The notes below the pieces were generated by a model. That model had not been told where the DNA came from. It made no database searches and worked only from the letters and a program-made list of their open reading frames with translations. Below, one piece after another: positions 57,568 through 63,544 of a stretch of 64,000 nt of DNA. Numbering within the stretch: position 1 is the stretch's first letter; the number at the start of each line of letters is the position of its first letter. The position numbers and the translations under genes were made by a program. Source of the stretch: Pyxidicoccus parkwaysis (GTDB lineage: Bacteria > Myxococcota > Myxococcia > Myxococcales > Myxococcaceae); the NCBI RefSeq assembly GCF_017301735.1, contig NZ_CP071090.1:8050001-8114000 (forward strand), read 5' to 3'.

Positions 57568-58854
57568 ATGACGGAGTGCCTCCTCAACATCGACCTCGGC
57601 GAGCTGCCCGGGGAGGATGAGCAGCTCTACGCGCTCGCCCAGGTGGCCAACATCGCCTGTGGAGGTCACGCGGGGGACGACGCGTCCATGCGCCGCGCGC
57701 TGGAGCTCTGCGCCCGCCATGGCACGTACGCCGGAGCGCATCCGTCCTTCGAGGACCGCGAGAACTTCGGCCGCAAGACGCTGGACGTCTCGGCCGAGGT
57801 GATGCGCGGTCAGGTGGCCGGACAGTGCGGCCGGCTCGCGCGGCTCGCGGCCAACCAGGGCGTGCCCGTGCGCTACGCCAAGCCGCATGGTGCCCTCTAT
57901 CACTCGGCCAACACGTCGCCGGAGCTGGCCCGCGCGGTGGTGGAGGGCGTGGTGGAGGCGCTGGGGCGCGGCATCACCTTCATCGGCCCGGGCAAGGGAG
58001 CTCTGCACGACGCAGCCCTCGCGGCGGGGCTCGCCTACGCGCGCGAGGGCTTCGCGGACCGGGGCACCCGGCCGGACGGCTCGCTCATTCCGCGCGGACA
58101 GCCCGGGGCCGTGCTCACGGACGCGGCGAAGGCCCGAGAGAACACCGTACGACTGGCGACCGGCGGCACGGTGGACACGCTCTGCGTTCACGGCGACACG
58201 CCGGGCGCGGTGGACCTGGCCCGCGAGGTACGTGCCACGCTGGATGCGCTCGCACTGCGCATGGACGCCCTCGGAGAGGGCGCGCTGCGGGTGGCACTTC
58301 CCGAAGGCCTGGAGCGCCGGGCCGCGCGCGAGGCGCTGTGCGCGGTACCTCGAGTGATGGATGCCGTCATCACCGAGGAACACGCCTGCGTGTACTTCGA
58401 CCCGGACGCGCCGCCCGAGGAGCCACGGTTGGCGCTCGCGAGGTTGCTGCACGTGCCTCCGAGTCCGGACGCGCGAGCATCCACCATCCTGCGCGTGCGC
58501 TACGACGGGCCGGACCTGGAAGCGGTGGCGACGCGCACGGGGATGACGAAGGACGCGGTGGCGAAGCTCCACTCGGCGCGCGAGTACACGGTGCGGTGCG
58601 TGGGCTTCCTGCCGGGCTTCGCGTACCTGGGCGAGGTGGACTCGCGCATCGCCGTGCCGAGGCTGGCCACGCCGCGCACCCGGGTGCCGGCGCTGGCGGT
58701 GGGAATCGCCGGTGGGCGTACGGGGGTGTATCCCTTCGCGTCGCCCGGCGGGTGGAACCTCATCGGCACCGCGCTGGACTTCACCGCCTTCTCGCCCGAG
58801 CAGGGCGCGGTGCTGCGGCTCGGTGACCGGGTGCGCTTCGAGCGGGTGGACTGA
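57568..58854 (+). CDS. 5-oxoprolinase subunits A and B fused (PxpA-PxpB)
   Basis: 428 residues from ATG 57568. Residues 1-~220 are PxpA (LamB/YcsF): LLNIDLGELPGEDEQLYAL, ACGGHAGDDASM, AHPSFEDRENFGR, RYAKPHGALYH, and LCVHGDTPGAV at the end. Residues ~230-428 are PxpB (KipI-like): ALRVALPEG..., PRVMDAVITEEHACVYFDP, VRYDGPDLEAVA, YTVRCVGFLPGFAYLGEVD and the final ASPGGWNLIGTALDF. The two are normally separate genes; here PxpA lacks a stop and is joined in frame by a short segment. With PxpC (one-base overlap downstream) it forms ATP-dependent 5-oxoprolinase, recycling pyroglutamate to glutamate. A sequencing frameshift is unlikely because the joint is in frame and coding throughout. Confidence 0.92.
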   Translation: MTECLLNIDLGELPGEDEQLYALAQVANIACGGHAGDDASMRRALELCARHGTYAGAHPSFEDRENFGRKTLDVSAEVMRGQVAGQCGRLARLAANQGVPVRYAKPHGALYHSANTSPELARAVVEGVVEALGRGITFIGPGKGALHDAALAAGLAYAREGFADRGTRPDGSLIPRGQPGAVLTDAAKARENTVRLATGGTVDTLCVHGDTPGAVDLAREVRATLDALALRMDALGEGALRVALPEGLERRAAREALCAVPRVMDAVITEEHACVYFDPDAPPEEPRLALARLLHVPPSPDARASTILRVRYDGPDLEAVATRTGMTKDAVAKLHSAREYTVRCVGFLPGFAYLGEVDSRIAVPRLATPRTRVPALAVGIAGGRTGVYPFASPGGWNLIGTALDFTAFSPEQGAVLRLGDRVRFERVD

Positions 58855-59729
58855 TGGCGGGCTGGCTGGAAGTCACGAGCATGGGAGGCCCCGCGACGGT
58901 GCAGGACGCCGGAAGGCCGGGGCAGATGCACCATGGCGTGCCACCGGGTGGAGCGCTGGTGCCGGGGCTATTGGCCCTGGCCAACCGCGCGGTGGGAAAC
59001 CCGTGGGGCGCGGCGGCGCTGGAGTCATTTGGAAGACTGGAGCTGCGAGGACGCGGGCGCGAGCTGCGCGTGTCCGTGGATGGACGCGTCTTCACGGTAG
59101 CGGAGGGAGAGAGCGTCACCGTGCCCGCACCGGAGTCCGCGAGCGTGCGCTACGTCGCGGTGGACGGAGGGCTCGCGGTACCGGAGGTGCTGGGCGGGCG
59201 AGGCACGCTGCTGGTGGCGAAGCTCGGAGGACTCGAGGGCCGGCTGCTGCGCGCGGGAGACGCACTGCCCCTGGGCGACGGTGGCGGCACACCGGAGGTG
59301 CTGGAGCTCGGAGACACGTTGGACACGGACGCGCCCATCCGCGTGACGCTCGGCCCGGACGTGGAGCGCTTCGACGAAGCGACACGGAAGGCACTGCTGA
59401 CGAACACCTTCACCGTGTCCCCCGCGAGCGACCGCGTCGGCATGCGACTGAAGGGCGCGGCGCTGGCACACGGAGACGAAGGCGCCGGCACGTCGCGTCC
59501 CATGGTGCGTGGAGCCATCCAGGTGACGCTGTCGGGCGAGCCCATCGTCCTCGGCCCGGACCACCCGACGACGGGCGGCTATCCGCTCATCGCCACCGTC
59601 ATCCGCGCGGACTGGAGCCGGCTGTGTGCACGCCGTCCGGGCACGCCCGTGCGTTTCATCGCGGTAAGTGTCGAACAGGCCCGTGAAGCGTGGCACCGGC
59701 ACGTCGAGCGCTTCCGCTTCACCCGCTGA
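58854..59729 (+). CDS. pxpC: 5-oxoprolinase subunit C
   Basis: 291 residues; ATG 58854 shares one base with the preceding stop (TGATG). PxpC/KipA (biotin-dependent-carboxyltransferase-like) subunit. Visible: TVQDAGRPGQMHHGVPPGGALVPGLLALANRAVGNP, of which the QDAGRPGxxxxGVPxGG pattern is diagnostic, and SDRVGMRLKG...DEGAGTSRPMVRGAIQVTLSGEPIVLGPDHPTTGGYPLIA near the end. Works with the fused PxpA-PxpB to hydrolyse 5-oxoproline using ATP. Length slightly below the usual ~310. Convergent with a Uma2-type gene three bases later. Confidence 0.93.
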   Translation: MAGWLEVTSMGGPATVQDAGRPGQMHHGVPPGGALVPGLLALANRAVGNPWGAAALESFGRLELRGRGRELRVSVDGRVFTVAEGESVTVPAPESASVRYVAVDGGLAVPEVLGGRGTLLVAKLGGLEGRLLRAGDALPLGDGGGTPEVLELGDTLDTDAPIRVTLGPDVERFDEATRKALLTNTFTVSPASDRVGMRLKGAALAHGDEGAGTSRPMVRGAIQVTLSGEPIVLGPDHPTTGGYPLIATVIRADWSRLCARRPGTPVRFIAVSVEQAREAWHRHVERFRFTR

Positions 59730-59732
59730 CCC

Positions 59733-60308
59733 TCAGGGCGCCTCCAGCTCCGGAGGCCACAATTCTCCGAGGTCCAGCTCCAGCGCCTCGAAGGGCTCGA
59801 CCCGCACGCGCGCTGTGCCGGAGTACGTGCCCAGCGCGACCCATTGTTCTCCCTGCCGCTGGAACGCCTCCAACGTGCGAGTGGCCGGGTCCACGAGCCA
59901 GACGTATTCCACACACTCGCGCGCATAGATTTCCCGCTTGCGCTTGCGGTCCAGCGAAGCGGTCGACGGTGAGAGCACCTCGCAGACCCAGTCCGGTGCC
60001 ACGGTGAAGAAGGGCATCCGGCGCAACTGCGGCATGCGCTCACGCCGCCAGCCACCAATGTCGGGGACCAGCACGTCCTCGCCCAAATGCAGCTCGGGTT
60101 CATCGTGAATCCACCAGCCACCCGGGGCCCGCAGTCCAATCTGGAAGGCGGTCGTCAGTAGACTCTGAATCACGGTGTGCGCCACGCCATGCGGAATCGC
60201 GGGCCTCGACATGGCGATGAGCTCGCCGTCGATGATCTGCCCGACCATGTTCTCGGGCAGCGCCTCGATGTCCGCATACGTCGCGCGCCGCTTCGTCTCG
60301 TTGCCCAT
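59733..60308 (-). CDS. Uma2-family PD-(D/E)XK-fold protein, copy A
   Basis: 191 residues from ATG 60308. Uma2/DUF820 putative endonuclease: a short N-terminal helical region (ATYADIEALPENMVGQIIDGELI), then VLVPDIGGW with the first acidic ligand, PDWVCEVLSPSTASLD with the Glu, RKRKREIYA with the catalytic Lys, and VEYVWLVDPATRTLEAF. The family is widespread in cyanobacteria and myxobacteria, with unproven biological role. Its near twin lies 2.4 kb away; the upstream 115 bases are also conserved, so both copies should be expressed alike. Confidence 0.88.
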   Translation of the reverse strand: MGNETKRRATYADIEALPENMVGQIIDGELIAMSRPAIPHGVAHTVIQSLLTTAFQIGLRAPGGWWIHDEPELHLGEDVLVPDIGGWRRERMPQLRRMPFFTVAPDWVCEVLSPSTASLDRKRKREIYARECVEYVWLVDPATRTLEAFQRQGEQWVALGTYSGTARVRVEPFEALELDLGELWPPELEAP

Positions 60309-60423
60309 CGCGATGCTCCCCTCTCCTCCAACCTCCAACCCGTCCATCATCAGCCCAGCCTCCCAGGAGTGAAACCCCACCCTCCACGGCGTGTCCACTC
60401 CTTCCTACTCGCTGGGTCTGACA
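59733..60423. repeat. 691-bp repeat, copy A
   Basis: Collinear with 62106-62796 without any visible gap. It covers a complete Uma2-type gene and its 115-base upstream region, ending in the shared ctactcgctgggtctgaca. Copies A and B point the same way and bracket a diheme cytochrome gene. Coding divergence is modest: about 23 differences over 191 residues by hand count. Confidence 0.9.
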
Positions 60424-60589
60424 GGCGCGGGATGGCACCCGAGTGCAGCGGGATGTCCAACCCGAGACGCCGCGCTTCTTTGAGTGTCGCAACCGCGACA
60501 GCCTCCCGGAGGCACGCTGGCGTGCACCGGGTCATCCCTCGTGGCGAGCGTAGCGTGCCTCACCTCCAACGTCCCCAAGGAGGTCACGC

Positions 60590-62035
60590 ATGCCTCGGAA
60601 TCCCCATCCCAAGGCGCTGACTGCAATCGCTGTCATCCTGTTCGTGGGTCATGCCTTCGCGCAGCCGGCGGAGGCCCCCCAGCCCACCAACGAAAGGAAG
60701 ACCCCCACCCCCGAGGACCTCGGGGATCAGACGTACACCATCCCCATCGTCGCCACGGAGAGCTTCCAGACCGTCATGGAGCGCGACGTCCGGGACAAGC
60801 CCGGCGTGATGCGCAAACAGCAGACACTCCTCGAGTCCCGGTATGACCTCTCCAACCTGCCCTCGAAGGTGATGATGTCGGGAGGCCGCAGGGCCGTGCA
60901 GCAGGGCGTCCGCGTCAAGCTCCCCAAGGGCGTGACGTGGGAACAGCTCGCCGCGATGAAGCCGGAGGAGATTCGCGAGAAGGGGCTCTTCCCGCAGGGC
61001 TTCCTCCCGCTGCCGCACGTGAAGCACGCCGTCGGCGGTCAGGTCTTCCCGAAGATGGAGATTGACGAGATTCGCAGGCTGGAGGCCCGCTCGCTGCAGC
61101 GCTTCGACGTGGACTTCGACATCCCCGAGCACCTGCTGCCGGAGTTCCCCCCGCCCATCTTCCTCTCGCAGCGTCCCGACCTGGGGGACGTCTCCCAGGG
61201 CAAGGTCCTCTCCGTCCGCAACTTCTTCGAGCTGATGAACGGCAAAATCACGCCCGTCCAGATGGACGGCCTGCGCCAGCTCCTCACGCCGTTTCCCCAG
61301 GCGGAGTTCAACGCGACGGACAGCCGGAAGGTGACCGAGGGCTCCTTCGGCGTCGCCTGTCTGGACTGCCACACCAACGGCCACACCAACGGGGCCATCC
61401 ACCTCAATCCGGACAACCGGCCCCAGGCCGCGCGCTTCCGCCTCGACACGGTCAGCCTGCGCGGAGTGTTCAACCAGCAGATTCACGGCTCCAAGCGCTC
61501 GCTGCGCTCCATCGAGGACTTCTCGGAGTTCGAGCAGCGCACCGCGTACTTCAACGGAGACATCGCGGACGCCGCCAAGAAGGGGGTGAACGAGCCGGAC
61601 CGCCCCACCCAGGTGGCGAACATGGCGCAGATGCAGAACATGTTCGACTTCCCGCCAGCGCCCAAGCTGCTGCCCACGGGCCGGCTCGACCCGGCGCTGG
61701 CCACCGAGCAGGAGCGGCTGGGCGAGAAGGTCTTCTTCGAGAAGGGCCAGTGCGCCGTCTGCCACGTCCCCTCGATGTCCTTCCTCGACCACCAGATGCA
61801 CGACCTGCGCGTGGAGCGCTTCTTCAAGCCGCGGACAATCAATGACCAGCTCATCCACGCGGATGGCCCCATCAAGACCTTCACGCTCCGCGGCATCAAG
61901 GACTCACCTCCGTACTTCCATGACGGACGTCTGCTGACGCTCGAGGACACGGTGGAGTTCTTCAACCTCGTGCTGGGCCTCAGGCTGGAACCCCGGGAGA
62001 AGGACGCGCTCGTCCAGTACATGCGCGTGCTCTGA
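60590..62035 (+). CDS. Diheme cytochrome c, peroxidase/MauG-like C-terminus
   Basis: 481 residues from ATG 60590 (AAGGAGGT ten bases upstream). Signal peptide ends near AFAQ (25). Two CxxCH sites: CLDCH (257-261) and CAVCH (388-392). The end SPPYFHDGRLLTLEDTVEFFNLVLGLRL is shared with the diheme peroxidase/MauG family (only SPPYFHDG and TLEDTVEFFN are cited as key elements). The N-terminal ~240 residues are unlike known peroxidases and are helical, rich in Glu/Lys. Predicted periplasmic redox protein; acts on peroxide or an unidentified protein substrate. Flanked on both sides by the 691-bp repeats. Confidence 0.86.
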   Translation: MPRNPHPKALTAIAVILFVGHAFAQPAEAPQPTNERKTPTPEDLGDQTYTIPIVATESFQTVMERDVRDKPGVMRKQQTLLESRYDLSNLPSKVMMSGGRRAVQQGVRVKLPKGVTWEQLAAMKPEEIREKGLFPQGFLPLPHVKHAVGGQVFPKMEIDEIRRLEARSLQRFDVDFDIPEHLLPEFPPPIFLSQRPDLGDVSQGKVLSVRNFFELMNGKITPVQMDGLRQLLTPFPQAEFNATDSRKVTEGSFGVACLDCHTNGHTNGAIHLNPDNRPQAARFRLDTVSLRGVFNQQIHGSKRSLRSIEDFSEFEQRTAYFNGDIADAAKKGVNEPDRPTQVANMAQMQNMFDFPPAPKLLPTGRLDPALATEQERLGEKVFFEKGQCAVCHVPSMSFLDHQMHDLRVERFFKPRTINDQLIHADGPIKTFTLRGIKDSPPYFHDGRLLTLEDTVEFFNLVLGLRLEPREKDALVQYMRVL

Positions 62036-62105
62036 TGCACGTCCGAGGGGAGGTGCATGCGCGCCTCCTCACCGCTCCACTACGAGCGGGCCTCGCGGCG
62101 GCCCC

Positions 62106-62681
62106 TCAAGGCGCCTCCAGCTCCGGAGGCCACAGTGCTCCGAGGTCCAGCTCCATCGCCTCGAAAGGCTCGGCCCGGATGCGGGCCTCGCCGGAGTACG
62201 TGCCCAGCGCGACCCATTGTTCCTCCCGCCGCCGGAACACCTCCAATGTCCTCTTGGCCGGGTCTACCAGCCAGACGTACTCCACGCCCTCTCGCGCATA
62301 GATTTCCCGCTTGCGCTTGCGGTCCAGCGACGCGGTGGATGGGGAGAGCACCTCGCAGACCCAGTCGGGCGCCAGGGTGAAGAAGGGCACCCGGCGCATC
62401 TGCGGCATGCGCTCGCGCCGCCAGCCGCCGACATCCGGAACCAACACGTCCTCGCCGAAGTGCAGTTCGGGCTCATCGACAATCCACCAGCCACCCGGAG
62501 CCCGCTGGCCTACCTGGAATGCCGTCACCAGCAAGCCCTGAATCACAGTGTGCGCAACTGAGTGCGGACTCGCGGGCCTCGACATGGCGATGAGCTCGCC
62601 GTCGATGATTTGCCCGACCATGTTCTCGGGCAGCGCCTCGATGTCCGCATACGTCGCGCGCCGCTTCGTCTCGTTGCCCAT
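62106..62681 (-). CDS. Uma2-family PD-(D/E)XK-fold protein, copy B
   Basis: 191 residues from ATG 62681, in the second 691-bp repeat. All putative catalytic residues are kept: Asp in VLVPDVGGW, Glu in CEVLSPST, Lys in RKRKREIYA. Roughly 23 residues differ from copy A (for example PHGVAH becomes PHSVAH, QLRRM becomes QMRRV, ECVEY becomes EGVEY), with no frameshift or stop, so both copies seem to be maintained by selection. Confidence 0.88.
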   Translation of the reverse strand: MGNETKRRATYADIEALPENMVGQIIDGELIAMSRPASPHSVAHTVIQGLLVTAFQVGQRAPGGWWIVDEPELHFGEDVLVPDVGGWRRERMPQMRRVPFFTLAPDWVCEVLSPSTASLDRKRKREIYAREGVEYVWLVDPAKRTLEVFRRREEQWVALGTYSGEARIRAEPFEAMELDLGALWPPELEAP

Positions 62682-62796
62682 CACGATGCTCCCCGTTCCA
62701 CCAACCTCCAACCCGTCCATCATCAGCCCAGCCTCCCCAGAGTGAAACCCCACCCTTGATGGTGTGTCCACTCCTTCCTACTCGCTGGGTCTGACA
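62106..62796. repeat. 691-bp repeat, copy B
   Basis: Second copy of the duplicated segment, same orientation and same length as 59733-60423, again carrying a full Uma2-type gene plus 115 upstream bases. Flanks differ outside the repeat (5-oxoprolinase genes on one side, ABC transporter genes on the other). Confidence 0.9.
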
Positions 62797-62809: not shown

Positions 62810-63544
62810 CTACCGCCTCAACAGGCGAGACAGGAACTCCCGGGTCCTCGGCTGCTTCGGCTCGCGCAAAACCTGTTGAGGCGCCCCCTCCTCCACCACC
62901 TTCCCCCCGTCCATGAACAGCACGCGGTGGGCCACGTCCTCGGCGAAGCCCATCTCGTGCGTCACCACGCACATGGTCATCCCCTCGCGCGCCAGCTCGC
63001 GCATGACCTCCAGCACCTCGCCCACCAGCTCCGGGTCCAGCGCGCTGGTGGGCTCGTCGAACAGCATCACCTCGGGCTTCATCGCCAGCGCCCGCGCAAT
63101 GGCCACCCGCTGCTGCTGCCCTCCAGAAAGCTGCTCCGGCCACGCACCCGCCTTCTCTCCCAGGTGCACCATCTCCAACATCCGCCGGCCCAGCGCCTCG
63201 GCCTCCGCGTCCGGCATGCCCAGCACCTTGCGCGGCGCGAGCGTCACGTTGTCCAGCGCGCTCAAGTGGGGGAACAGATGGAAGCGCTGGAACACCATGC
63301 CCACGCGGCGGTGCAGCGCCTGGAGCGCCTTCGCCTCGTCGCGCACCGGCACGCCGCCCACCACCACCTCGCCCTCCGTCGGCATCTCCAGCCCGCACAG
63401 GCACCGCAGCAACGTGGACTTGCCACACCCGGACGGGCCCACGAAGACCACCACCTCGCCGGGCTCCACCGTGAGGTCCACGCCCCGGAGGACCTCCAGC
63501 GTCCCGAAGCGCTTGTGCAGGTTGCGGACCTCGACGAGCGACAT
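62810..63544 (-). CDS. Polar amino acid ABC transporter ATP-binding protein
   Basis: 244 residues from ATG 63544. GlnQ/HisP/ArtP-type ATPase: Walker [11 protein letters not shown]-loop [21 protein letters not shown] signature LSGGQQQR, Walker [15 protein letters not shown] and switch His in [16 protein letters not shown]. The Met-Gly-Phe-Ala sequence after the switch His is typical of amino acid importers. Powers uptake through the permease encoded eight bases upstream. The binding protein is not in the window. Confidence 0.95.

Follow-up and report, generated by a model that had tools for sequence, protein, structure and literature searches.

Duplicated Uma2 genes of Pyxidicoccus parkwaysis share a promoter element that resembles the switch of a LexA-independent DNA-damage response

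Two direct repeats carry whole Uma2 genes

We analysed a window of 64,000 nucleotides from the Pyxidicoccus parkwaysis genome (contig NZ_CP071090.1, positions 8,050,001 to 8,114,000), in which two direct repeats, each with an intact gene of the Uma2 family and the promoter element in front of it, lie on either side of a cytochrome gene. The first-pass annotation of this DNA had described the repeats as collinear and ungapped, and this was confirmed: the best ungapped segments are 694 bp long, lie on the same strand with an offset of 2373 bp (Table 1), agree at 608 of 690 bases over 59731-60420 and contain no indel. A BLAST search of the genome with the repeat unit gave 88% identity over query positions 2-694. 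Base differences between the two copies fall on third codon positions in 47 of 82 cases, a pattern that fits purifying selection on both genes. As a repeat the pair is unremarkable; the noteworthy part is the promoter on each copy.

Homology between dispersed paralogues of the unit begins at one and the same base (many BLAST matches start at position 1 or 2 of the query). This 5′ edge is formed by TGTCAGACC-N7-TAGGAA, with the general form TGTCRGACC-N7-TAnnnT, and the edges of the unit are sharp because the promoter element lies at one end and the stop codon at the other. The window holds two such elements, where 0.01 would be expected. Across the single 13.2-Mb contig of the genome there are 29 exact TGTCRGACC-N6/7-TA sites, compared with 7 matches to the reversed pattern used as a control. 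In 27 genomes of the genus we counted 604 sites versus 132 control matches, with an excess in every genome, and in 96 genomes of the family 1399 versus 370. Among the 69 family genomes outside the genus, sites exceeded the control in 58, equalled it in 4 and fell below it in 7.

The first-pass annotation had remarked that Uma2 families multiply in some genomes, and they are multiplied in this one: we counted 15 genes, eight of which carry the element within one mismatch (five exactly), with approximately 0.06 expected from shuffled sequences. Homologous units are present elsewhere in the genome and in the genus, and tandem pairs recur. In an alignment of 43 units, which were chosen by similarity to the repeat and so do not represent Uma2 genes at large, the letters TGTC, GACC and TAG vary little and the spacer drifts. 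The element marks the 5′ edge of Uma2 units and is enriched across the Myxococcaceae. A search for the LexA (SOS) box found no match within two mismatches inside the window, which speaks against LexA control of the Uma2 genes there.

Between promoter and gene lies a leader with a block of the form GTGG-GGTT-YYAC, present in 43 of 43 units and invariant save for two C/T positions. All 76 leader-block copies in the examined loci, some of which overlap, stand directly downstream of the promoter element. The longest open reading frame of each copy opens with GTG; across the 43 units, however, the leader shows no excess of third-position changes (0.167/0.231/0.226 for the three codon positions), whereas the body of the Uma2 gene does (0.151/0.127/0.295). 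This speaks against the leader as coding sequence and disfavours the GTG start, and translation probably begins at the ATG at 60308 and 62681. With that start, the 115 bases upstream of the gene that had been placed inside the repeat are correct. As a side observation, the leader block could fold into a 6-bp hairpin, and some of the changes in it are paired; 200 of 217 pairs are formed, compared with 102-135 when the pairing is shifted, and we leave it as such because the changes are mostly one-sided.

Both window proteins match the Pfam family Uma2 (PF05685), with 90.1 and 97.5 bits at a gathering cut-off of 27, and solved relatives of these proteins are 6OKH, 9Y1L, 3OT2 and 1WDJ. The motifs vPD, CEvlSPsT and DR..K are kept at their PD, E and K positions across 42 aligned Uma2 proteins, and we take these acidic and lysine residues to be those of the nuclease fold. 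The proteins are predicted nucleases that may serve repair or the destruction of foreign or broken DNA.

The element precedes a shared set of genes

We compared the genes behind 118 exact sites in five genomes, here given by our own handles (29 in the P. parkwaysis genome, G000, 29 in G068, 25 in G018, 20 in G063 and 15 in G071), using open reading frames that start within 450 bases downstream of each site. The reversed pattern occurs 25 times in the same genomes, so about one fifth of the sites may be due to chance. Most of the sites (85 of 118) fall into 20 gene clusters that recur in two or more of the genomes, and the spacer is 7 bases long at 78 of these 85 sites. Five clusters are common to all five genomes: Uma2, ddiA and three families with no match in Pfam. 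Among the clusters seen in two, three or four genomes are SMC, a protein with a uracil-DNA glycosylase (UDG) domain, ATP-dependent DNA ligase and MoxR-type AAA proteins, as well as VWA-like (just under the cut-off), coiled-coil, kelch and TetR-like proteins. Thus, the element precedes the same gene set in different species, including ddiA and DNA-repair genes. Papers are cited here by PubMed Central identifier. In G063 the element also stands before an sbcD-like gene, a possible orthologue of SbcD1 of Myxococcus xanthus; SbcD1 is raised by mitomycin C and is unchanged in a lexA mutant (PMC12288472).

Several further sites were recorded in their own right. Five of them, one per genome (L154, L315, L313, L275 and L300), precede a conserved stretch with GTCGCGCACAC and GCGCCCTCACCGC blocks that was missed by the clustering; in G018 an mnmG-like frame follows the stretch, which is possibly a small RNA or a long leader. 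On a 147-kb contig of G068 (contig 2; L330, L331, L332), four exact elements stand before genes for ParB, a 238-aa protein, RadC and a DUF932 protein. At 4.737 and 4.752 Mb of the P. parkwaysis genome (L143 and L144), two near-identical genes approximately 15 kb apart (803 aa read, the frames running on) both have a TGTCGGACC site 189 bases upstream. Similar promoters of the form TGTCAGACC-N7-TAGA are found at L148, L150, L158 and their relatives in G063 and G068, where the genes, when called, encode TetR-like proteins of about 470 aa.

At ddiA the element lies at promoter distance from a published start site

The P. parkwaysis genome encodes an XRE protein behind one of the sites (L151), with an orthologue at L168; the frames beside the latter, as read from their translations, are presumably PomX, PomZ and PomY. 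The nearest named relatives by ddiA are Pyxidicoccus caerfyrddinensis and Myxococcus dinghuensis. The element was found 119-123 bases upstream of the ATG in 21 of 22 ddiA orthologues (at least 76% identity), the 22nd having only 42 bases of upstream sequence; 17 more distant paralogues were also inspected, and not one has it. Together these make up 39 of a set of 80 loci.

In M. xanthus, DdiA is raised by mitomycin C independently of both LexA and DdiA itself, and the passages at hand leave its inducer open (PMC12288472). The ddiA gene of strain AM003 has 119 codons and a stop, versus 120 codons in that paper, whose Fig. 3 legend places the ATG at +94 from the published start site. Counted from this +1, TGTCAGACC of AM003 ddiA occupies -29 to -21 and TAATCT occupies -13 to -8. 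These are the places where the -26 and -10 elements of a PafBC promoter belong, the two elements that PafBC promoters carry (PMC10609372, PMC10936776); a RecA-NDp promoter with the same arrangement has also been described (PMC6789036, PMC8223512, PMC2897130). The agreement with a PafBC-dependent promoter was assessed on ddiA alone.

The repeats arose by local duplication

In the genomes nearest by these genes, G054 and G068, the order is CT_A_B, one Uma2 gene and a glnQ-like gene, with no cytochrome gene; CT_A_B also adjoins Uma2 in G073, G067, G079, G077, G063, G070 and G055, and tandem or close Uma2 pairs occur in G067, G057, G068 and G073. In a tree of the 43 units, the window copies are sisters (support 100/99), on branches of 0.054 and 0.089, and G068 and G054 together form the group sister to them (99/99). 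Judging by this position and the branch lengths, the duplication is younger than the split from G068 and G054, but not recent, and the tree and gene order indicate that the pair arose by local duplication in this lineage. Gene conversion need not be invoked to explain why the copies are near-identical at unit positions 150-200, since this stretch is similarly conserved relative to G054 and G068.

The cytochrome gene encodes two CXXCH haem motifs and gives weak MauG-type matches. Its homologues in six genomes of three other genera are 79-83% identical, compared with 55-60% in its own genus, and nucleotide-level homology of those loci is confined to the gene. Since the closer homologues lie in other genera and the homology is limited to the gene, the cytochrome gene is most simply explained as horizontally acquired, either beside the local duplication or in one event with it. 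Co-transfer with Uma2 was rejected, there being no Uma2 gene in the 1.5-kb flanks of the six closest cytochrome loci from other genera.

Table 1. Coordinates of the features at the repeat locus (positions in the window)
Feature	Coordinates	Strand	Basis
Repeat copy 1 (promoter, leader and Uma2 gene)	59730..60423	-	Best ungapped segment
Repeat copy 2 (promoter, leader and Uma2 gene)	62103..62796	-	Best ungapped segment
Copy 1 promoter element, TGTCAGACC-N7-TAGGAA	60402..60423 (TGTCAGACC 60415-60423, TAGGAA 60402-60407)	-	
Copy 2 promoter element, TGTCAGACC-N7-TAGGAA	62775..62796 (TGTCAGACC 62788-62796, TAGGAA 62775-62780)	-	
Copy 1 leader block, GTGG-GGTT-TCAC	60369..60380	-	
Copy 2 leader block, GTGG-GGTT-TCAC	62742..62753	-	
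Uma2 gene 1, likely ATG at 60308, 191 aa	59733..60308	-	Pfam; predicted start
Uma2 gene 2, likely ATG at 62681, 191 aa	62106..62681	-	Pfam, solved relatives; predicted start
Di-heme (CXXCH x2) MauG-like cytochrome gene, with its closest homologues outside the genus	60590..62035	+	
Carboxyltransferase (CT_A_B) gene, conserved to the left of the Uma2 locus	58854..59729	+	
ABC transporter ATPase gene (glnQ-like), right neighbour, common to G054 and G068	62810..63544	-	

PafBC as the candidate regulator

The P. parkwaysis genome has seven WYL matches. Two of them, adjacent to each other at 8.440-8.442 Mb, match the two halves, PafB and PafC, of the solved PafBC structure 6SJ9, and also 7P5X. Upstream of this pair lies a LexA-type box, CTGCTTGTCTGTTCAGC, which resembles the published SOS box of M. 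xanthus pafBC (PMC9705874). PafB was found in 88 of 96 family genomes, and the three genomes of genus g23, all without PafB, have fewer sites than control matches.

DISCUSSION

In our favoured reading, each repeat is a PafBC-type (-26) promoter followed by a conserved untranslated leader and a Uma2 gene, that is, a LexA-independent damage gene; we give it a probability of roughly 0.64. We infer the induction and the regulator from the observed element and its conservation. The promoter looks like the on-switch of a myxobacterial DNA-damage response that works without the classic SOS repressor. DNA damage would produce single-stranded DNA, which would activate the WYL pair PafB/PafC; activated PafBC would bind TGTCRGACC and recruit housekeeping RNA polymerase, a step taken from mycobacteria, with transcription from TAnnnT. 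The Uma2 nuclease, DdiA and repair proteins would then be made independently of LexA, and the Uma2 proteins would act in repair or destroy foreign or broken DNA. The wider proposal deserves barely more than even confidence: a Myxococcaceae PafBC-type -26 regulon (TGTCRGACC-N7-TAnnnT) that is LexA-independent and may directly induce ddiA, SMC, UDG, ATP-dependent ligase and an expanded Uma2 set with a conserved leader hairpin, in which Uma2 genes would be duplicated as whole damage-inducible units.

A number of observations weigh against these proposals. Damage induction of the Uma2 genes is argued from sequence, namely from the element and its conservation, and 7 of the 15 Uma2 genes in the genome lack the element. 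Outside the shared open-frame clusters fall 33 of the 118 sites, five of which precede the conserved stretch near mnmG; many shared downstream genes (kelch, tail-sheath-like, TetR-like) have no known repair role, and sites common to the nearest genomes partly reflect recent ancestry. We did not recognise recN, recJ, uvrA or recA2 among the genes behind exact sites in the five genomes; all four are strongly damage-induced in an M. xanthus table (PMC12288472), and a printed recN oligonucleotide contains TGTCGGACC with TA only 3 bases on, a different spacing (PMC9705874). At ddiA, the start site comes from the published strain and the sequence from AM003. Two genomes, G089 and G094, lack sites altogether despite encoding a PafB homologue, and in passages of the DdiA paper the authors set the PafB/PafC homologues aside, since LexA controls their abundance (PMC12288472).

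The last two points fit a reading in which the element and the damage-linked regulon are the same and the regulator is another WYL protein, for which the seven WYL matches leave room, an alternative sigma factor or some other activator: PafBC abundance is LexA-controlled and ddiA induction is not (PMC12288472). We regard this as possible but doubtful, given that the element agrees in spacing and position with the -26 element known from PafBC promoters and that sites are depleted relative to control in the PafB-less g23 genomes. It is also unlikely that the repeats are an ordinary tandem pair of paralogues behind a housekeeping-type promoter without a link to damage, with edges set by purifying selection on the transcription unit. 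The tree, the synteny and the third-position bias do fit plain duplication, as do the several downstream genes without a repair role. Against this reading stand the number of sites, only 29 in 13.2 Mb and so too few for a housekeeping promoter, the presence of ddiA and repair genes among those downstream, and the agreement with the ddiA start site.

The first-pass annotation had suggested that the locus could be a spreading Uma2 module or a deletion-prone pair, and of this interpretation the multiplication of Uma2 and the variable arrangement stood. The arrangement differs between relatives, so that the state named beforehand as refuting it, only two copies in the same order everywhere, was not what we found. 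Spread as a mobile module was not supported. PADLOC models of the phage-defence candidate PDC-S03 match both proteins, and the high copy number per genome and the repeated occurrence of tandem pairs would suit single-gene anti-phage nucleases that spread as promoter-gene cassettes. Yet terminal repeats or target-site duplications were found neither in the flanks of the two copies nor around two possible inserted segments (the best direct or inverted matches are of 4-6 bases), which speaks against a transposon or mobile cassette, and the locus beside CT_A_B is kept in many members of the genus, from which we take the copies to be mostly vertical or local. Mobile or defence cassettes are thus an improbable account. 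Still less credible is a recombination hot spot at which the repeats delete the cytochrome gene: orientation and 88% identity would permit it, but the single-copy relatives branch outside the sister pair and have no homologue of the window cytochrome at the locus. With the window copies as sisters, the single-copy state is most simply ancestral rather than a deletion product, and tree and synteny reject the deletion.

If the PafBC-type reading is true, the known range of such promoters grows beyond Actinobacteria to include myxobacteria, and Uma2, a large family of obscure function, gains a condition under which to seek that function. For the 2025 DdiA paper (PMC12288472), in whose passages at hand the route of ddiA induction remains a stated open question, the element offers a base-level target. 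Earlier work had established PafBC promoters in Actinobacteria and, for M. xanthus, both homologues of PafBC and a response that does not depend on LexA; the letters of the motif, its gene set and a link between Uma2 and damage were not found in the literature searched, a coverage that excludes most subscription papers.

Comparison with known systems

The mycobacterial consensus is tTGTCRgtg-N8-TAnnnT. TGTCR and the spacing agree with it, whereas the next three letters differ, GACC following TGTCR here. As in mycobacterial PafBC/RecA-NDp promoters, a non-palindromic TGTCR-type element lies approximately 26 bases before the start and is followed by a -10 element; as in the mycobacterial PafBC system, PafB and PafC are present and the proposed regulon is one of DNA repair. 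Its content differs (Uma2, ddiA, SMC, UDG and ligase), and Myxococcus pafBC is itself under LexA, unlike the mycobacterial system (PMC12288472, PMC9705874). With the SOS regulon our set shares damage-linked genes, and here the window has no LexA box within two mismatches. In the Uma2 family, the PF05685 match and the PD/E/K conservation are as expected; what is new is a damage-type promoter common to gene copies. The closest relation is to the DdiA branch of the M. xanthus damage response, whose paper (PMC12288472) does not mention Uma2 in its main text and, in the passages at hand, names no such motif and leaves the inducer of ddiA open: the same element stands at the ddiA promoter in 21 of 22 orthologues.

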